Part shown: positions 3,588 to 30,632 of the stretch, piece by piece
Position numbering within the stretch: the first letter of the stretch is position 1
Layout of the letters: the number at the start of each line of letters is the position of its first letter
DNA from: Bacillus sp. FJAT-42315
Lineage (GTDB): Bacteria; Bacillota; Bacilli; Bacillales; Domibacillaceae
Direction: 5' to 3'
Assembly (NCBI RefSeq): GCF_002797375.1
Contig: NZ_KZ454941.1
Coordinates: 2,080,344-2,137,838, forward strand
DNA: 57,495 nucleotides
Notes under the pieces: model-generated
The model's database searches: none
Told to the model about the DNA's origin: nothing
What the model saw: only the letters and a program-made list of their open reading frames with translations
Position numbers and translations under genes: made by a program

Positions 3588-4325
3588 TCACTTGTTATTA
3601 TCAGCATACACAGCCATCGCATCTCGCATAAATCGAGCTAATCCTTCTCCGTATTGATCAATGTTCTTCGTAAAGCGCTCATCATCCACATACATTTGCC
3701 CTAGCCCTTTAAAAGCTTCAAGCGAGTAATTCCCCATTTTATTCAAAAAGTTATACCATTCTTTAATCACTTCTTGTGCTTCCTGAGAGGCTGGAGAATG
3801 ATGACGAAGAGCGGCCAATTTTTTATAGATGACATCCCATTCCTTAGACATTTCTTTTTGCTCATCTTTTGTTATATTTCCTATTTTCTTGTTAGACTCA
3901 TCCACCGCCTGATCGCCCCAGCGCTCCCTTGCTTCTTGTTCGTATGGATTATGACTAAAATCAAACCCTGCAAATTTCTCTTTGTTGGACATGTTAATTT
4001 CCCCTTTCATATGTTGAATCGTTTGATCAATCGTCCCAAGCATTCGATCAATTCTCTGGCGCTTCTCCAGCAACATTTTTCGATGGAGTTGAAGAGCCTC
4101 TTCCCGGTCAAATGAAGGACTGTTAATCACTTCTTTAATCTTTTTCAAAGGAAAGTCTAGCTCTCTGAAAAATAAAATCTGTTGCAACGTCTCAAGGTTG
4201 TCGTTAGAGTATAGGCGATATCCCGCTTCTGTTACCTCATCAGGAACCAATAATCCGATTTCATCATAATGATGCAGAGTACGTACACTAATCCCAACTA
4301 AATCAGATACTTCTTTCACTCTCAT
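3588..4325 (-). CDS. MerR-family regulator with TipAS effector domain (TipA/Mta-like)
   Basis: 245 residues. Residues 1-70 are a MerR winged helix ([26 protein letters not shown]... AGYRLYS), residues 75-110 a dimerisation coiled coil ([20 protein letters not shown]), and residues 118-243 a TipAS ligand-binding domain ([12 protein letters not shown]). Family members such as Mta and TipAL bind large hydrophobic or thiopeptide drugs and activate promoters with long spacers by untwisting DNA. An internal ATG ([10 protein letters not shown]) may give a short form made only of the TipAS domain, as in TipAS. The upstream promoter has a 19-bp spacer, so autoregulation is likely. No efflux gene lies next to it. 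Confidence 0.85.
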
Positions 4326-22706: not shown

Positions 22707-23507
22707 TTAAGAAATTTTTTGTAACTTAGTTTGTTGTACTTGTTGTTTTGGGTAAGACATGAAGTAAGCCATTCCGACAAATACAGCTCCTCCAACAACA
22801 TTTCCTAAAAATGCGGGAACAACATTTCCTAAAAACTCGATCCATGTTACATGTCCAGAAAAGATGGCAGCTGGAATAACAAACATATTGGCAACAACGT
22901 GCTGGAATCCAATCGCAACAAACGCCATGACTGGGAACCAAATACCAAAGATTTTCCCAGCAAAATCATTCGCTCCGTAAGCTAGCCAAACAGCTAGACA
23001 GACAAGCCAGTTACAACCAATTGCAGAAATAAACGTTTGCATAAAGGAATCAGCAACTTTTGCCTCAGCAATTGCTACCGTTTTATCTAAAAATGGTCCT
23101 GTTTCTGTTAAACCGACAACATGACCAAAAAAGTAAGCGACAAATAAAGCACCAATTAGGTTCGCTAACGTAACCCAAAACCAGTTACGAGCTAAGTCTG
23201 CTACTGTAATTCTTCGAGCATAAAGTGCCATAGGTACAGACATCATGTTTCCAGTAATTAATTCTGCACCAGCAAGAATGACTAAAATGAGCCCCAATGG
23301 GAAAACAGCTGCTCCTAAAAATCCAGCAAAGCTTCCCCACTCTGGTGGCATACTTCCTATCACTCGAATATCAAGTAAAAATCCTAACGCAATGAAAGCT
23401 CCTCCTAAAAACCCAAGTATAAGCATTGTTGTTATCGGTAATTTTGCCTTTCCAACACCCGCTTCAATGGCTATTTCTGTAATTTTATCTGGTTTATTAA
23501 AAGCCAT
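22707..23507 (-). CDS. Formate/nitrite transporter family channel (FNT, FdhC/YrhG-like)
   Basis: 266 residues with six hydrophobic segments. FNT signatures are AGAELITGNMM, SAIGCNWLVCLAVWLA and GFQHVVANMF (FEHSVANM-type loop with the channel His). It moves formate, or possibly nitrite, across the membrane. Its position 46 bp downstream of moaA and near fdhF favours formate as substrate; B. subtilis has an FNT gene (yrhG) beside its formate dehydrogenase too. Confidence 0.88.
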   Translation of the reverse strand: MAFNKPDKITEIAIEAGVGKAKLPITTMLILGFLGGAFIALGFLLDIRVIGSMPPEWGSFAGFLGAAVFPLGLILVILAGAELITGNMMSVPMALYARRITVADLARNWFWVTLANLIGALFVAYFFGHVVGLTETGPFLDKTVAIAEAKVADSFMQTFISAIGCNWLVCLAVWLAYGANDFAGKIFGIWFPVMAFVAIGFQHVVANMFVIPAAIFSGHVTWIEFLGNVVPAFLGNVVGGAVFVGMAYFMSYPKQQVQQTKLQKIS

Positions 23508-23553
23508 GCCTACATTCCTCCAATTTACCTCTTGTTATCAAATTTTCTTCTTT

Positions 23554-24570
23554 CTATCCACCAATATGAGACATTTCTACTTTCGTATTTGTCCGCGGGC
23601 GGGTCTGATTGGTCCGCTCATCAGAATAGCGGTCGCTTCGATGACTCCAAACGCTTTCGATAATTCCAGCAATAGCGTCATCACTTTGTCCCGAACGGAG
23701 CAGTTCTCGAAGGTCGGTTCCAGCTGTAGCAAATAAACAAGTATACAGTTTTCCCTCAGCAGAAATCCGCGCTCTTGTACAAGTGGAACAAAATGAATCG
23801 GTCACCGATGAGATGATCCCAATTTCTTGGTCGCTATCGATGTAGCGATAACGAGTTGCTACTTCTCCACTGTAATTCGGTGCCATCGGTTCGATGGGAG
23901 AAAATTGATTCACTTGATTCAATATTTCTTGCTTAGACGTCACATCATCTAAACGCCATCCGTTCGAATTACCTACATCCATGTACTCAATAAAGCGAAG
24001 GTTGTGCTTTTTCTCTTTAAAAAAGCGAGCCATTGGAATAATATCTTGGTCGTTTTTCCCTTTTTGTACGACCATATTTACTTTAACTTTCATACCTACT
24101 TCTGCTGCTTTTTCAATGCCTTCTAACACGGTCTTTACTTTTCCTCTGTTACCATTCATCGCTAAAAAACGTTCTTCGTTTAATGAATCCAAACTAACAG
24201 ACACACGTGATAAACCCGCTTTCGCTAAGGTTTCCGCATGCTTTTTCAACAGTGCTCCATTCGTTGTTAAAGCGATGTCCTCTACTCCGTCGATTTGATC
24301 GATCCGTTCAATTAGTTCTGGCAGATTCCTTCTTAACAGCGGCTCTCCACCGGTGATTCGTATCTTTTTCACACCAAAAGAAACAAAAATTTTGACTAAT
24401 CGTTCCATTTCATCAAATGATAAAATTTTATCAGAAGGTAAAAAAGAATAATCACTTCCAAAAATCTCTTCAGGCATACAGTATCGACAGCGGAAATTGC
24501 AACGATCGGTCACTGATAGACGTAAATCTCTTAAAGGGCGACGCAGCTTGTCCTGTACTTCTGTATTCAT
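23554..24570 (-). CDS. moaA: GTP 3',8-cyclase MoaA (radical SAM)
   Basis: 338 residues from the ATG at 24570, which has GAGGTGAAG upstream; an earlier in-frame ATG at 24606 has none. The radical-SAM cluster motif is [10 protein letters not shown], followed by [13 protein letters not shown] and [15 protein letters not shown]. The C-terminal [4Fe-4S] ligands are in [15 protein letters not shown] and YTCLF. The terminal GG, needed for catalysis, is present (SHIGG). Operon: DUF2294, fdhD, moaA, FNT on the minus strand. Confidence 0.95.
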
Positions 24571-24624
24571 CTTCTTCACCTCTTTTCTTAAATTAGTGGT
24601 TTTCATCGTTAGCTATCTTTCAAA

Positions 24625-25422
24625 TTATGAGTTCAGCTTAATTCTTTCAGGACAAGTGTAAATATTTAGTGATTGCTGACGAATGAACCCAACAGTTGTT
24701 ATACCTAATTGTTCAGCTAATTGTAAAGCTAATTCTGTCGGAGCGGACTTCGAAAGTACGATTTCACATCCTATTTTTGCTACTTTCAGCAAAATTTCTG
24801 ATGAAATTCTCCCACTAAAAACTAATACTTTATCCCCTATAGAGATATCATTTCTTAAGCAGTATCCGTATATTTTATCAAGCGCATTATGCCTCCCAAT
24901 ATCCATTCTGCTCAAGATTGTCCCATTTATATCACATAGAGAAGCATTGTGAACCCCGCCCGTTTGTTGAAACGTGACGGCCGAGTTTTGCATGTCATTC
25001 ATTAAGCGAAAACAATCTTCTGGCGTAATTTGTACGCGGACTTGATCCATCTTTTTTGCCGTTAAGGCGTCGTTAACAAATACAAAACCTTGTCTACTCA
25101 TCCCACAGCATGAAGTGATATATCGCTTATTTTGAAACTTGTGATAGTAAGGGTTTACTTTCTTTGTTTTTACGTGAACAAAGCCGTCTTTTTCTTGAAT
25201 CGATATATCTTCAATGTCTTCAAATTTGCGAATAATATTTTCTGAAGCAAGATAGCCAATCACCATATCTTCAATATGCTCGGGGGTACAAACCATTGTG
25301 ACAAACTCCTCTTGGTTAATTTTCACCGTAACCGGGTACTCTGTCACAATCACATCTTCTACCTTTTCTACTTGACCATTGTCTACACGAATAATTTCTC
25401 TCTTTACTTCCGCTTCCCTCAT
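24625..25422 (-). CDS. fdhD: Formate dehydrogenase accessory sulfurtransferase FdhD
   Basis: 265 residues, start preceded by AGGAGGT. FdhD motifs: TEYPVTVKINQEEFVTMVCTP, GYLASENII, the Cys pair in TSCCGMSRQGF (the CxxC-like sulfur-transfer loop, here CC), TGGVHNASL, DIGRHNALDKIYGY and VFSGRISSEIL. It passes sulfur from a cysteine desulfurase to the molybdenum centre of FdhF. It lies between moaA and DUF2294, divergent from its client fdhF. Confidence 0.94.
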   Translation of the reverse strand: MREAEVKREIIRVDNGQVEKVEDVIVTEYPVTVKINQEEFVTMVCTPEHIEDMVIGYLASENIIRKFEDIEDISIQEKDGFVHVKTKKVNPYYHKFQNKRYITSCCGMSRQGFVFVNDALTAKKMDQVRVQITPEDCFRLMNDMQNSAVTFQQTGGVHNASLCDINGTILSRMDIGRHNALDKIYGYCLRNDISIGDKVLVFSGRISSEILLKVAKIGCEIVLSKSAPTELALQLAEQLGITTVGFIRQQSLNIYTCPERIKLNS

Positions 25423-25432
25423 CTTTGACCTC

Positions 25433-25777
25433 CTAATCTATATCTTTATCAAAAATAAACACGGAAACTGCCATATCTTCTTCGATCTTGATATCGGAAA
25501 ATAAATGGACTAATTTTGCCCCCATTAATTCTTCCATTCCCTCAGGAGTTGCTTTCGAGTACACTTCTTGAATCATTCTCGTTCTTGCTGCATGAACCAT
25601 CGCAACCCCATCTGGCGTACTCGCAATAAATTTTTCTGTCGGTGTCAAGTTTCCATAAAGCGTGGATATTGCCATCTTTTCAACGAATATAGTGTGAATC
25701 CGTTCCGGCCCTTTCCCAAACAGATCTTTACGAAGTTTACGAATGATATCATTGAATTCATGAACTTTTTTAGACAT
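25433..25777 (-). CDS. DUF2294 family protein
   Basis: 114 residues from the ATG at 25777 (GGGAG 10 nt upstream); an ATG three codons earlier sits on that site. The DUF2294 pattern is RKLRKDLFGKGPERIHTIFVEKM, GNLTPTEKFIASTPDG and ARTRMIQEVYSKATP. No catalytic function is known for the family. It lies 10 bp before fdhD and 371 bp from divergent fdhF, so a role in formate metabolism is possible but unproven. Confidence 0.8.
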   Translation of the reverse strand: MSKKVHEFNDIIRKLRKDLFGKGPERIHTIFVEKMAISTLYGNLTPTEKFIASTPDGVAMVHAARTRMIQEVYSKATPEGMEELMGAKLVHLFSDIKIEEDMAVSVFIFDKDID

Positions 25778-25887
25778 AATAGGCATTCTCCCATCATAAA
25801 AAATACTTATTAATATTTTTGATAAAGCGATTTCACCCTTACAATTTGTTAATGATAAATCAACTTTGCTAAAATTTAAAGGAGAAG

Positions 25888-25929: not shown

Positions 25930-25958
25930 TTGTTTATTTTCTGGGAAAGAGCTATAAT
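25930..25958 (+). promoter_or_regulatory. Sigma-A-type promoter of the fdhF leader
   Basis: TTGTTT (25930-25935), exactly 17 bp, TATAAT (25953-25958). Expected transcription start is near 25965, leaving a leader of about 184 nt before the fdhF start codon. Confidence 0.7.
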
Positions 25959-25963
25959 AAGCG

Positions 25964-26121
25964 ATGGTGCAGATGGATCCGGAATATTTTCCAATGTTTT
26001 AGGTCTATCGGTTTATTAAATAAAAACTGGATTGGTCTTTTAGTAAGATCTGCTAAGAAGCTTATCCACCATGAATTTTTTGCATGTTTAGTAGACATGT
26101 CAATTCGTGGTGGATTTTTTT
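25964..26121 (+). ncRNA. Structured fdhF leader with terminal terminator: candidate riboswitch or attenuator
   Basis: The leader ends in a strong intrinsic terminator placed directly before the fdhF ribosome binding site: ATCCACCATGAATT (26064-26077) pairs with AATTCGTGGTGGAT (26102-26115; one wobble), then seven T. Upstream, GCAGAT (25969-25974) can pair with ATCTGC (26048-26053), enclosing GGAA/TTCC, CCAAT/ATTGG and CGGTTT/AAACTG hairpins. ATGGTG at the 5' end can pair with CACCAT (26067-26072) inside the terminator arm, giving a mutually exclusive antiterminator. No known riboswitch consensus was recognised; no T-box sequence is present. Confidence 0.6.
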
Positions 26122-26148
26122 GTGTGTTTAAAAGGGAGGTACACAAAG

Positions 26149-29076
26149 ATGACTGAAATTAAAATCAATGGAAAAGAGTACTCAGCGAAACAAGGGCAAA
26201 CGATTCTAGAAGTAATTAACCAAAATGAAATCGCCCATCCACAAGTTTGTTACGTTCCAGAAGTAGACCCACTTCAAACATGTGACACTTGTATTGTCGA
26301 AATCGACGGAAAGTTAGTTCGTTCTTGTTCAACAAAAGCAGAAAGTGGCATGAACATTCAACTAGCTTCTCCTAAAGCGAAAGAAGCGCAAACGGAAGCG
26401 ATGGATCGTTTATTAGAAAATCATTTACTTTACTGTACAGTGTGCGACAACAATAACGGGAACTGTACGTTGCATAACACCGTAGAAATGATGGGCATTG
26501 AGCATCAAAAGTATCCATATGAACCAAAAGTGGATCCAACAGAAGTAGATATGTCTCACCCATTCTACCGTTACGATCCAAACCAATGTATCGCTTGTGG
26601 TCAATGTGTAGAGGTATGTCAAAACTTGCAAGTCAACGAAACATTATCACTTGATTGGGAAGCTGAACGCCCACGTGTTGTTTGGGACGAAGGCGTTGCC
26701 ATCAATGATTCTTCTTGTGTTGGCTGTGGCCAATGTGTCACTGTTTGTCCATGTAATGCCTTAATGGAAAAATCCATGTTAGGCGAAGCTGGATTTATGA
26801 CAGGCCTAAAGCAGGATATGCTTGACCCAATGATCGACCTAATTAAAGACGTAGAACCAGGCTACAGCGGGATTATGGCTGTATCAGAAGTAGAAGCAGC
26901 CATGCGTGACAAGCGTACGAAGAAAACGAAAACTGTTTGTACGTTCTGTGGTGTCGGATGTTCATTTGAAGTATGGACGAAAGATCGTAAAATCTTGAAA
27001 GTTCAACCATCTAAAGGGCCAGTGAACGCGATCTCTACTTGCGTAAAAGGAAAATTCGGTTGGGACTTCGTCAATTCAAAAGAGCGCTTAACGAAACCGT
27101 TAATTCGTAAAGATGGTGCATTCGTTGAATCTTCTTGGGATGAAGCACTTGACTTAATCGCTTCTAAATTAGGTGCGATTCAAAAAGAATTCGGTTCAGG
27201 ATCAACAGGTTTCATTTCTTCTTCTAAAATCACAAATGAAGAAAACTACTTAATTCAAAAAATGGCGAGACAAATTTTTGAAACGAATGACGTTGATAAC
27301 TGTTCACGTTATTGTCAATCTCCAGCAACGGACGGTCTATTCCGTACAGTTGGTATGGGTGGAGATGCTGGAACGATCAAAGACATCGCTAAATCAGGTC
27401 TTGTTATTATTGTCGGAGCTAACCCAGCGGAAGGACACCCTGTATTAGCTACTCGCGTTAAACGTGCGCATAAATTACATGGTCAAAAACTAATTGTGGC
27501 AGATATTCGTAAGCATGAAATGGCTGAGAGATCTGATATCTTTATGCGACCGAAGCAAGGAACAGACCAAGTTTGGTTAATGGCTGTAACGAAATACATG
27601 ATCGACCAAGGTTGGCATGATGAGAAATTCATTTTAGAAAACGTCAACTTCTATGAAGATTTCAAAGATGTACTTCAAAAATACACATTAGAGTATGCTG
27701 AAGAACAAACAGGTATTTCTAAAGAAACGTTAATTGAAGTAGCGAAAATGATTCGTGATGCAGACGGCACTTGTGTCCTTTGGGGAATGGGTGTCACTCA
27801 AAACACTGGTGGTTCTGATACATCCGCTGCGATTTCTAACTTATTGTTAGCAACAGGAAACTACCGTCGTCCGGGCGCTGGTGCTTACCCGCTTCGTGGT
27901 CATAATAACGTACAAGGTGCTTGTGACATGGGTACTTTACCAAACCTACTTCCTGGTTACCAAAGTGTGACCAATGATGAAGCACGCGCCAAGTTTGAAA
28001 AAGCTTACGGTGTAAAAATCAAACCAGAACCAGGTTTAAATAATATTCAAATGCTTCAAGCCGTTGAAGAAGGAAAAATGAAAGCGATGTACGTTGTCGG
28101 AGAAGATATGGCTTTAGTTGACTGTAACGCCAACCATGTACATGATGTTTTATCTCAACTTGACTTCTTAGTCGTTCAAGATATTTTCCTTTCTAGAACC
28201 GCTCAATATGCCGATGTTGTGTTACCTGGTGCTCCTTCTCTTGAAAAAGATGGAACATTTACAAATACAGAACGTCGTGTTCAAAGACTATATGAAGTAT
28301 TACCACCACTTGAAGATGCAAGACCAGACTGGAGAATCCTTCAAGATGTTGCGAACCGTTTTGGTGCGAATTGGAATTACAGTCATCCAAGTGAAATTTA
28401 CGATGAAATGGCTAGCCTCTCCCCTATTTTTGGAGAAGCAAACTATGAAGTTCTTGAAGGCTGGAATAGCTTCTTCTGGGGTAGCCTTGATGGTAAGAGC
28501 ACGCCACTTCTATATGTAGATGGCTTTAACTTCCCAGATAAAAAAGCTCGTTTCGCGTTATATGATTGGGTAGAGCCAGTGGAATTCCCTGAAGAATACG
28601 ATTGTCATATTAACAACGGTCGTGTACTTGAACACTTCCATGAAGGAAACATGACGAATAAATCAGAAGGTATTCAAGCAAAAGTACCAGAAATTTACGT
28701 GGAAGTATCACCAGAGTTAGCGAAAGAACGCGGAATCAAAGATGGTTCTCTCGTACGCTTAGTCTCTCCATACGGCGCGTTGAAATTAAATGCACTAGTA
28801 ACCGATCGCGTCCAAAAGAATGAGCTATTCTTACCGATGAACTCTGTAAGCAAAGACTCGGCGATTAACTTCTTAACAGGTCCAGCTGTTGACCGTTGTA
28901 CGTTCACACCTGCTTACAAGCAAACGAAAGTGCGTGTAGAAGTGTTAAAAGCCGATGGTGGAAAAGCACCATTACCAAAAACAAATCCACGTTACAAAAA
29001 ACGTCACCCGCAAAACGGTGTCGAAGCAGAACGTAAATGGAAGCGTCCAGGCTACGTTCACTTAACAACGAAATAA
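26149..29076 (+). CDS. fdhF: Formate dehydrogenase, molybdopterin-containing alpha subunit
   Basis: 975 residues from the ATG at 26149, which has GGGAGGT upstream; an ATG at 26107 lies in the terminator and is not used. Order of domains: a [2Fe-2S] ferredoxin-like domain (cysteines in CYVPEVDPLQTCDTCIVEI, CTVCDNNNGNC), two [4Fe-4S] motifs (CIACGQCVEVCQ, CVGCGQCVTVCPC), then the molybdopterin oxidoreductase starting CTFCGVGCSFEV. The predicted Mo ligand is Cys in NCSRYCQSP, not selenocysteine. C-terminal MGD-binding domain from about residue 870. It oxidises formate to CO2; the electron acceptor is not evident because no NAD/FMN subunit is encoded here. Confidence 0.94.
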   Translation: MTEIKINGKEYSAKQGQTILEVINQNEIAHPQVCYVPEVDPLQTCDTCIVEIDGKLVRSCSTKAESGMNIQLASPKAKEAQTEAMDRLLENHLLYCTVCDNNNGNCTLHNTVEMMGIEHQKYPYEPKVDPTEVDMSHPFYRYDPNQCIACGQCVEVCQNLQVNETLSLDWEAERPRVVWDEGVAINDSSCVGCGQCVTVCPCNALMEKSMLGEAGFMTGLKQDMLDPMIDLIKDVEPGYSGIMAVSEVEAAMRDKRTKKTKTVCTFCGVGCSFEVWTKDRKILKVQPSKGPVNAISTCVKGKFGWDFVNSKERLTKPLIRKDGAFVESSWDEALDLIASKLGAIQKEFGSGSTGFISSSKITNEENYLIQKMARQIFETNDVDNCSRYCQSPATDGLFRTVGMGGDAGTIKDIAKSGLVIIVGANPAEGHPVLATRVKRAHKLHGQKLIVADIRKHEMAERSDIFMRPKQGTDQVWLMAVTKYMIDQGWHDEKFILENVNFYEDFKDVLQKYTLEYAEEQTGISKETLIEVAKMIRDADGTCVLWGMGVTQNTGGSDTSAAISNLLLATGNYRRPGAGAYPLRGHNNVQGACDMGTLPNLLPGYQSVTNDEARAKFEKAYGVKIKPEPGLNNIQMLQAVEEGKMKAMYVVGEDMALVDCNANHVHDVLSQLDFLVVQDIFLSRTAQYADVVLPGAPSLEKDGTFTNTERRVQRLYEVLPPLEDARPDWRILQDVANRFGANWNYSHPSEIYDEMASLSPIFGEANYEVLEGWNSFFWGSLDGKSTPLLYVDGFNFPDKKARFALYDWVEPVEFPEEYDCHINNGRVLEHFHEGNMTNKSEGIQAKVPEIYVEVSPELAKERGIKDGSLVRLVSPYGALKLNALVTDRVQKNELFLPMNSVSKDSAINFLTGPAVDRCTFTPAYKQTKVRVEVLKADGGKAPLPKTNPRYKKRHPQNGVEAERKWKRPGYVHLTTK

Positions 29077-29093: not shown

Positions 29094-29570
29094 ATGGCAG
29101 CACCTATTACAACGATTCAAAAACAACAACTAACAGAAGAACAAATCAAAGAACAAAAACTAGAAGATTTAAAAGCGCTCCTTTCAGAAAATGAAGAAGC
29201 GTTGAATCAAATCTTCTCGATTGTAGGAGAACTAAATAAAGTAGGAGCACTTGAAGCAGCGACTAAGCTGCTTCAAGCGAAAGAAGAAGTAGCAGGCATT
29301 GTTCTACATCAAGTCTCTCGTGAACCAGTAACGAATTTAATCAATCATTTTATGGGTGTCGCAGGTGTAATGACTGCTATGGACCCTGAAATGACGAAAA
29401 AACTCGTGAGCAGTTTAAACTCTGGAATCGATGAAGCAAAACAGATCAAGAACGATGAAAAAGTCGGCGTGTTCGACTTGATGAAAGTATTGAAAGACCC
29501 AGACGTGAACCGTGCAGTGAACTTCGGTGTTCACTTCTTGAAAGGTCTAGGCAAAGGATTGAAAGAATAG
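29094..29570 (+). CDS. DUF1641 protein, formate dehydrogenase partner (YjgD/YrhD-like)
   Basis: 158 residues, 17 bp after fdhF with GGAGTG upstream. DUF1641 pattern in the C-terminal half (HFMGVAGVMTAMDPEMTKKLVSSLN, LKDPDVNRAVNFGVHFLKGLGKG). In Bacillus such genes always follow the fdhF-type gene (yjgC-yjgD, yrhE-yrhD). The role is unknown; a membrane- or quinone-related adaptor has been suggested, but nothing in the sequence settles it. The N-terminus is helical and highly charged. Confidence 0.87.
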   Translation: MAAPITTIQKQQLTEEQIKEQKLEDLKALLSENEEALNQIFSIVGELNKVGALEAATKLLQAKEEVAGIVLHQVSREPVTNLINHFMGVAGVMTAMDPEMTKKLVSSLNSGIDEAKQIKNDEKVGVFDLMKVLKDPDVNRAVNFGVHFLKGLGKGLKE

Positions 29571-29585
29571 GCAGGGATAAACACG

Positions 29586-30632
29586 ATGCTAACAAACGAA
29601 CAAGTATTACAAGCTCTGGAGAAAGTTAATGATCCAGAGCTTCATAAAAGTATTGTTGAATTAAACATGGTAAGAAACATCCAAATTCAAGATGGTCACG
29701 TGCAACTAGAAGTTGTATTAACGATTCAAGGCTGTCCGCTCAAAGCGAAAATCCAACAAGATATTGAAGATGCTCTTAGACATACCGGTGCTGTAAGTGT
29801 CTCTTTAACTTTTGGTGCGATGACCGATGAAGAACGTCAAGCGTTAACGAAATCACTCAAAGCAGAAGCGGTAACGGAAACAGGCATGCCCAAAATGTTA
29901 CGTCCAGATTCCGGAGTCAAATTTATTGCGGTAACGAGCGGTAAAGGCGGCGTTGGTAAATCAACAGTAACAATCAACTTAGCGGCTGCCCTTGCTCGCT
30001 TAGGAAAACGCGTAGGCATTTTAGATGCAGATATTTATGGATTTAGCATTCCAGCGATGATGCAAATTAAACAACAGCCAACGATGATTGACCAAACGGC
30101 GATTCCTTCTACTAGCCACGGCGTAAAAGTAATGTCGATGGGCTTTTACTCTAAGGATAACCAACCAGTCATGTGGCGTGGGCCGATGTTAAACAAATGG
30201 ATTCGCAATTTCTTAGTCAATACGCATTGGGGAGAGTTGGATTACCTTCTCTTAGACCTTCCTCCAGGGACAGGTGATGTGGCGATTGATGTAGCGGCAA
30301 TGATCCCTCATGCTAAAGAAATTATCGTCACTACTCCTCACAATGCTGCTTCTCATGTAGCATCGAGAGCAGGAGTGATGGCTAAACATACGAAACATCA
30401 CATTATGGGTGTCGTCGAAAACATGGCGTACTACGAAGAAAACGGCGAAAGAAAATATTTATTTGGACAAGGTGGCGGTGATAGACTAGCTGAACAGCTA
30501 CAAACAGCCGTCATTGCCCAAGTACCATTCGCTCAACCAGAAGAAAACACCGGCACTTCTGTATATGATGAAGAATCCATCGTCGGCGAAGCCTTTACTA
30601 GCTTAGCAGAAGATATTATTCATTATCATTAA
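29586..30632 (+). CDS. Mrp/SalA-type P-loop ATPase with N-terminal MIP18 (DUF59) domain
   Basis: 348 residues. Residues 1-85 are a MIP18-like domain (VLQALEKVNDPELHKSIVELNMVR, LTIQGCPLK). Residues 110-348 are a ParA/Mrp ATPase with the deviant Walker A TSGKGGVGKST, and LLDLPPGTGDVAID. The CxxC found in Fe-S-carrying Mrp/ApbC proteins after the VENMAYY motif is missing (VENMAYYEENGERKYLFG), as far as I recall also true of B. subtilis SalA. It follows DUF1641 by 15 bp, so it is probably co-transcribed with fdhF; Fe-S cluster delivery to the cluster-rich FdhF is an attractive inference. Confidence 0.85.
   Translation: MLTNEQVLQALEKVNDPELHKSIVELNMVRNIQIQDGHVQLEVVLTIQGCPLKAKIQQDIEDALRHTGAVSVSLTFGAMTDEERQALTKSLKAEAVTETGMPKMLRPDSGVKFIAVTSGKGGVGKSTVTINLAAALARLGKRVGILDADIYGFSIPAMMQIKQQPTMIDQTAIPSTSHGVKVMSMGFYSKDNQPVMWRGPMLNKWIRNFLVNTHWGELDYLLLDLPPGTGDVAIDVAAMIPHAKEIIVTTPHNAASHVASRAGVMAKHTKHHIMGVVENMAYYEENGERKYLFGQGGGDRLAEQLQTAVIAQVPFAQPEENTGTSVYDEESIVGEAFTSLAEDIIHYH

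Follow-up and report, generated by a model that had tools for sequence, protein, structure and literature searches.

A two-hairpin transcription attenuator of formate dehydrogenase genes in Bacilli and a DUF2294 protein as its candidate regulator

The leader of the formate dehydrogenase gene fdhF of Bacillus sp. FJAT-42315, which lies in a stretch of 57,495 nucleotides (nt) analysed as a whole (hereafter the window), contains two hairpins, P1 (25972–26009, plus strand) and P2 (26028–26068, plus strand), that are copies of one motif, and P2 overlaps the intrinsic terminator in front of the gene. Both the repeat and the overlap are solid, and the leader is a real, widespread attenuator that is absent from Rfam. 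We propose that P2 is the antiterminator and that the element is controlled by the DUF2294 (PF10057) protein encoded next to it (YrhF in B. subtilis), with a signal that is perhaps formate-related; we give this reading a probability of about 0.57.

P1 and P2 were recognized as copies of the motif UGR-N7-RYA-loop-UGY-N7-YUA on reading the aligned rows, and both are delimited by covariation and a signature scan. In the window, P1 consists of UGG (25974–25976), seven bases, AUA (25984–25986), a loop, UGU (25995–25997), seven bases and CUA (26005–26007). The 5′ strand of P2 consists of a UGGAU foot, UGG (26033–26035), seven bases and GUA (26043–26045), followed by the loop AGAUC, and its 3′ strand of UGC (26051–26053), seven bases, CUU (26061–26063) and an AUCCA foot (26064–26068). 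In an alignment of 14 rows (A1), 11 of the 35 predicted pairs had changed on both sides. From a larger set of 132 rows (A3), 46 were picked for diversity and ten of these omitted (i.e. five focA rows; L071, L042, L046 and L077, parts of which were badly placed by MAFFT; and L008, which has a one-base deletion), leaving 36 rows (A5) that were picked among matches to the covariance model R1 described below, so that counts lean towards that model. Across these rows, pairing is seen in 87.6% of cells, both sides have changed in 16 of 33 pairs and the covariation score is 0.278, against at most 0.104 for slid versions; none of 500 shuffles reached it.

The paired anchors are conserved in both hairpins. 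UGG is kept in 34 and 33 of the 36 rows (P1 and P2, respectively), RYA in 36 and 36, UGY in 36 and 35 and YUA in 34 and 32, while the seven-base spacing is found in 32 and 35 rows for the two strands of P1 and in all 36 for either strand of P2. The lower anchors form a G.U wobble in 36 of 36 rows, in P1 and P2 alike; the upper U.G is present in 35 rows of P1 (C-G in one) and in 28 rows of P2 (C-G in seven and U-A in one). Weak spots in P2 (columns 83–118, 88–113 and 89–112, which pair in 3, 10 and 20 of 36 rows) are an internal mismatch and a small internal loop. Loop sequences are variable in both hairpins, with lengths of 4–17 nt in P1 (6 nt in 12 of 36) and of 5 nt (28 rows), 6 nt (seven) or 8 nt (one) in P2. 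Copies in front of focA-like genes, which lie outside A5, have unrelated terminator sequences and keep the anchors in both hairpins. The two-hairpin signature occurs at one place in the window (both strands), namely this leader. A scan of fetched loci, 2.27 million strand-bases in all, gave 89 occurrences, whereas three passes over the sequence shuffled in 200-nt windows gave none; because the loci had been retrieved on account of the element or of DUF2294 and come in part from the same genomes, 89 is not a genome-wide rate.

The surrounding signals are those of a transcription attenuator. A sigma-A-type promoter on the plus strand (25930–25958), read from the sequence, consists of TTGTTT (25930–25935), a 17-nt spacer and TATAAT (25953–25958), and is followed by a leader of about 184 nt that reaches the fdhF ATG at 26149. 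The terminator (26064–26121, plus strand) comprises a stem at 26064–26115 and seven T at 26115–26121, and it lies directly 5′ of the region read as the fdhF ribosome binding site (AAAAGGGAGG, 26130–26139, plus strand). TATAAT is kept in all 14 homologous loci; it also served as the cutting mark for the A1 rows, and no locus was discarded for want of it. The fold of 25960–26121 is better than that of shuffled sequences (z −3.74; 1 of 200 shuffles equally good). A simple promoter and terminator scanner run on the window listed neither signal, the promoter because its −35 box matches at 3 of 6 positions where the scanner requires 4, and the terminator, by our own reading, because its stem is interrupted.

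The first five bases of the terminator 5′ arm (AUCCA, 26064–26068) are at the same time the partner of the UGGAU foot of P2, and P2 should therefore act as the antiterminator. Predicted folds give −46.9 kcal/mol with the terminator and −44.1 kcal/mol with the P2 foot forced, a difference of 2.8 kcal/mol, and the forced foot leaves only a shortened hairpin that is detached from the U run. From this small cost and the detached hairpin, it would follow that the RNA alone mostly terminates and that a modest binding energy at P2 reverses the outcome. Judged by sequence and energy only, the leader thus has the anatomy of a transcription attenuator, i.e. a terminator 5′ of a gene and a conserved antiterminator that excludes it.

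The initial annotation had described the same promoter, leader and terminator, all of which stand, and had placed the antiterminator in two other helices, which do not. Over the 14 A1 rows, its ATGGTG/CACCAT helix pairs in 48.6% of cells (48.1% in shuffles and 21.6–45.9% in slid versions) and its covariation score was reached by 293 of 500 shuffles; its GCAGAT/ATCTGC helix pairs in 63.1% (62.3% in shuffles and 33.3–46.4% in slid versions) and its score was reached by 153 of 500. Both were dropped as lying at shuffle level in pairing and covariation, though the second pairs more often than its slid versions. The mutual exclusion it described holds for P2 and the terminator instead, and the covarying pairs among homologues lie in P1 and P2. 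Its view of an attenuator of no known class agrees with the covarying helices, the exclusion between P2 and the terminator and the Rfam searches: covariance models, that of the T-box included, applied to the whole window at gathering score gave no match to the leader, and a search with the leader alone up to E 10 gave only SpF43_sRNA and snoR77, far under their gathering scores.

We then examined how widely the element is distributed and which genes follow it. A blastn search with the 221-nt leader against 101 genomes (its own included) matched 15, of which 14 were usable; the match in L015 was put down to chance similarity with the ribosome-binding-site end of the leader and discarded. The covariance model R1 found matches (E≤0.01) in 74 of 397 genomes of the order and in 20 of 135 genera, including two genomes (G016 and G041) later left unconfirmed and one (G244) with another RNA type. 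A second model of P1 and P2 only (R2) found the element in 32 of 398 genomes of the class, families outside the order included. Among named genomes, a P2 pattern marked 58 stretches from the Bacillus subtilis and licheniformis groups, Geobacillus, Priestia, Fictibacillus, Gottfriedia, Domibacillus, Paenibacillus and others, among which the B. subtilis group, Geobacillus, Priestia and Paenibacillus represent further orders; the full two-hairpin signature is present in 43 of the 58 (45 with one extra mismatch), and all 11 stretches inspected have a leader and a terminator. Weak R1 matches on the strand opposite an element were taken as the palindromic terminator and rejected. The R1 matches of G016 and G041 were dropped too, as R2 did not confirm them; neither genome has an FdhF at E 1e-30, and the match in G016 precedes what we take to be an adenine deaminase-like gene. 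A 47.8-bit R1 match at L095 (5001–5145), unconfirmed by R2, lies 5′ of an adenine deaminase-like gene, and a different leader may lie there.

The genes downstream of 93 sequence-distinct hairpin pairs are fdhF (74), focA-like genes (10), PF03458 genes (4), DUF2294 (1), PsiE (1) and others (3); for two of the last group (L226 and L251) the available sequence stops before the next gene, and the third (L127) precedes a gene that is presumably HepT-like. A run of five T follows within 90 nt in 91 of the 93 pairs, compared with 588 of 2000 positions drawn at random from these loci. By covariance models, the element also stands directly 5′ of DUF2294 in seven loci (L043, L052, L053, L055, L057, L058 and L075), all from one genus (g27). 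Several less usual neighbours were seen. PF03458 ('glycine transporter'/TRIC-like) genes stand behind the element in L054 (3001–3134), L060 (3001–3139), L115, L117 and L127 (4437–4532), with a divergent DUF2294 gene in L054 and L060. A psiE gene (PF06146) stands behind the element in L139 (5027–5124) and after DUF2294 in L052 (3703–4113). At L127 (14835–14933) and L096 (5001–5152), an element or relic lies 5′ of genes that we assume to be HepT-like (with a presumed MntA-like gene in L096), perhaps through insertion behind the leader.

The candidate partner was assessed by co-occurrence, with DUF2294 as the sole candidate gene. The family as such is found in 289 of 397 genomes of the order, which says little because it has several paralogues. 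A search with the window protein, however, separates a type I (60–100% identity, E≤2e-41; 74 of 397 genomes) well from the other matches listed (identity ≤51%, E≥2e-32). Genome lists for R1 and type I, compared by eye, agree in 70 genomes; in genomes without type I, the element was searched for by R1 only, with few exceptions. Four genomes had R1 matches only (G012, G016, G041 and G244) and four had type I only (G014, G154, G186 and G325). The element was confirmed by R2 in G325, by R2 on the locus (35.6 bits) and by the signature in G014, where the whole-genome R2 search was negative, and by the signature alone in G154 (R2 negative). G186 has type I and no convincing element, with a 25.8-bit match elsewhere, and G244 carries the type-II RNA described below. 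In the final count, 73 genomes hold both, G012 holds the RNA only and G186 the protein only (73 of 74 each way; Fisher's test 5.5e-78, in which related genomes are not independent and kinship is uncorrected). Furthermore, G309, the genome of L054, holds the element, a type-I DUF2294 and a PF03458 gene with no FdhF at E 1e-30, so the pair is separated from formate dehydrogenase in one genome.

A confident AlphaFold2 model of the window protein (predicted local distance difference test score 92.3, predicted template modelling score 0.82) has an alpha/beta fold with two strand pairs, and PDB comparisons by sequence and by fold brought up no clear relative. Among the residues that do not vary across 59 sequences are R16, R19, the GKGP context minus E28 (G24, K25, G26 and P27) and A67-R68-T69; these would be compatible with a nucleic-acid surface but are no proof of it. 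The Pfam name MpsC says little because, in the excerpts available to us, on which all statements about cited papers are based, deletion of mpsC in Staphylococcus aureus gave no growth phenotype (PMC6689103). No such RNA was found in the flanks of YbcI-like DUF2294 genes. Beside one of these (L150), two cyclic di-AMP riboswitches were seen (1958–2095 and 2238–2381).

A second DUF2294 subtype (type II, 45–50% identical) is accompanied by an RNA of its own. In the 20 loci read (L097 and L254–L272), the usual order is a major facilitator superfamily transporter, DUF2294 and a molybdopterin oxidoreductase (PF07690, PF10057 and PF00384; domains tested in L256 alone), and between the last two genes lies a conserved hairpin UGG-N6-RYA-GCGnnCC-UGY-N6-CUA with an overlapping ACCACCG terminator (e.g. 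L256, about 3900–4001, minus strand). This one-hairpin attenuator is present in 17 of the 20 loci (L097, L254–L268 and L272), in 16 by a pattern that was written after viewing the loci and in L267 by eye, while L269, L270 and L271 lack the pattern. Elsewhere the pattern occurs once in 3.05 million strand-bases of other loci, and Rfam gave no match at the attenuator in the three loci tested (L097, L256 and L264). An RNA subtype that matches the protein subtype is what would be expected of a cognate RNA–protein pair.

Taken together, these observations make DUF2294 a likely but unproven partner. By default the terminator would form and transcription would halt about 30 nt upstream of fdhF, whereas formation of P2 would remove the start of the terminator 5′ arm and cause antitermination. 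We infer that a regulator binding the RNA and gripping P1 and P2 together would stabilize P2, so that RNA polymerase passes and the gene is turned on. This regulator would most likely be the DUF2294 protein encoded alongside, which would probably act as a dimer whose subunits each take one hairpin and would respond to formate or to a related one-carbon or redox signal; the regulated genes would be fdhF, the formate/nitrite channel gene and, in one genus, the gene of DUF2294 itself. A broader proposal, for which we put the odds slightly below even, is that DUF2294/PF10057, now filed under a sodium/membrane-potential system, contains an uncharacterized family of RNA-binding antiterminators, of which (i) type I would read two hairpins (7-bp spacing), (ii) type II would read one (6-bp spacing, GCGnnCC loop) and (iii) the targets of both would be formate genes and related one-carbon, transport and redox genes throughout Bacilli, B. 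subtilis yrhF-yrhE included.

The element has probably been recorded before in B. subtilis. Table 2 of an Hfq co-immunoprecipitation study lists a 'New sRNA or yrhE leader region' of 139 nt with the highest ratio; its list of small RNAs (sRNAs) holds ncr2184/ncr60 (234 nt, yrzI-yrhG), and its authors regarded the uncharacterized leaders of Table 2 as likely new regulatory elements (PMC3574147). We infer that these RNAs may be the elements studied here, because (i) the yrhE leader of B. spizizenii is this element, (ii) its divergent gene encodes a type-I-like DUF2294 and (iii) the channel-gene leaders L070, L072 and L076 (B. subtilis-like) contain P1 (matched by the pattern in two of them, recognized by eye in the other) and a diverged P2 read by eye. 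The ForCE proteins are menaquinone-linked formate dehydrogenases, and neither anaerobiosis nor fermentation nor induction by formate seems to bring about expression of forCE2 (PMC8808070). Expression of yrhEFG is raised by benzoate and low pH (PMC2788229); the ratios in RoxS tables are 0.42 (YrhF) and 0.69 (forC2 and forE2), which is correlative only (PMC10433868); and a 200-nt stretch near yrhE appears in a long table of candidates (PMC4448311). The excerpts of PMC8632094, PMC11109978, PMC6429828, PMC2965389, PMC4448311 and PMC4342826 hold no description of the leader, nor did the literature searched, with subscription papers mostly outside its scope, describe the element or antitermination by YrhF.

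Two observations weigh against control by DUF2294. Possible self-control of DUF2294 is seen in one genus only, g27, to which all seven loci belong, and this slightly lowered our confidence. In G012 (L094 and L163), no DUF2294 gene lies between the channel gene and fdhF, where G006 (L093) has one, and both elements are kept; of all the observations, this speaks most strongly against an obligatory role of the protein. G012 retains two divergent genes for double-domain DUF2294 proteins.

The metabolite- or cofactor-sensing riboswitch favoured by the initial annotation is now our second choice, and we consider it unlikely. P1 and P2 would then be tandem aptamers or one joint aptamer for formate, a one-carbon compound or a molybdopterin-type compound, and DUF2294 a mere member of the regulon. 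The attenuation architecture, the broad distribution, the coherent formate regulon and the retention of the element in G012, which lacks type I, would all suit it. However, the two hairpins repeat one motif and the element tracks the DUF2294 gene, even in G309 where FdhF is missing; neither loops nor linker are constant in length or sequence, the most conserved letters are found in helices and no unpaired core is conserved; and type II of DUF2294 is accompanied by a related RNA of its own. The repeated motif and the co-occurrence instead favour the last option that the annotation had named, an RNA-binding antiterminator.

Whether the binder might be another regulator, encoded elsewhere, is a separate matter. 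A repeated helical motif would suit any RNA-binding protein, the G012 element persists without type I and elements at L127, L129, L139 and L140 have no adjacent DUF2294 gene, but the genomes concerned (G548, G461 and G582) hold DUF2294 elsewhere, and we judge such a regulator improbable. More improbable still is a constitutive leader with an ordinary terminator, whose hairpins would serve RNA stability or an Hfq/sRNA function: the short Hfq-associated RNA from the B. subtilis leader region (PMC3574147) would fit it, whereas P2 overlaps the terminator precisely and the two hairpins are found together in front of several genes of linked function whose terminator sequences are unrelated. Attenuation by a ribosome or leader peptide was rejected on reading the homologues and is barely credible, since the nine-codon frame opened by the ATG in the window P1 (25973–26002, M D P E Y F P M F) is shorter in L005 and L006, longer in L003 and without ATG in L009, with no clear ribosome binding site before it in the rows read.

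The window fdhF (26149–29076, plus strand; TIGR01591, 811 bits, cut-off 666) is assigned to the ForC/YrhE type by synteny with the following DUF1641 gene (29094–29570, plus strand; PF07849), a partner of ForE/YrhD type (PMC8808070). The gene that comes next, in this cluster as in several other loci, encodes a Mrp/ApbC-like P-loop ATPase (29586–30632, plus strand), named from synteny and its best NCBIfam matches (MrpORP and ApbC, both under cut-off). Divergent from fdhF lies the gene for the DUF2294 protein (25433–25786, minus strand; 117 amino acids, YrhF type), which matches PF10057 (3.8e-32, 111.1 bits, cut-off 23) and has no NCBIfam match. Downstream of it on the same strand are fdhD, moaA and a formate/nitrite transporter gene (22707–25422; TIGR00129, TIGR02666 and TIGR00790 above cut-off; PF01226), the formate-specific FocA model being under cut-off for the transporter. 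The transporter gene closely follows moaA, and the signature scan found no element there.

If correct, our proposal would provide a regulatory logic for the formate dehydrogenase and formate-channel genes of Bacilli; forCE2 is noted to escape the usual control by formate and anaerobiosis (PMC8808070). It would also explain the leader RNA listed for B. subtilis in 2013, give a function to members of a family of unknown role and add a new RNA–antiterminator pair with a simple modular code. The yrhE leader RNA is among the closest precedents, and the excerpts of its source list it without structure, homologues, partner or mechanism (PMC3574147). Attenuating riboswitches (e.g. the molybdenum cofactor, tetrahydrofolate, S-adenosylmethionine and purine families of Rfam) share the succession of leader, antiterminator and terminator, but the present leader matches no Rfam family and has no conserved unpaired core.

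Antiterminators controlled by ANTAR proteins (e.g. NasR, AmiR and EutV) consist of two hairpins with conserved hexanucleotide loops, the second of which overlaps the terminator. The present element resembles them in its two short leader hairpins and in the overlap, and protein-dependent antitermination is our proposal here. It differs in that the loops vary and the paired anchors are conserved, with no conserved hexanucleotide loop in either hairpin; PF10057 is the only Pfam family matched by the divergent neighbour, and ANTAR proteins were not searched for in the genome. Ribonucleic antiterminator sites of the LicT, SacY and BglG type are single hairpins read by BglG-type proteins under control of the phosphotransferase system. 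They are similar in that binding to a hairpin with conserved features keeps the terminator from forming, whereas the element described here has two repeated hairpins and belongs to a formate-linked regulon.
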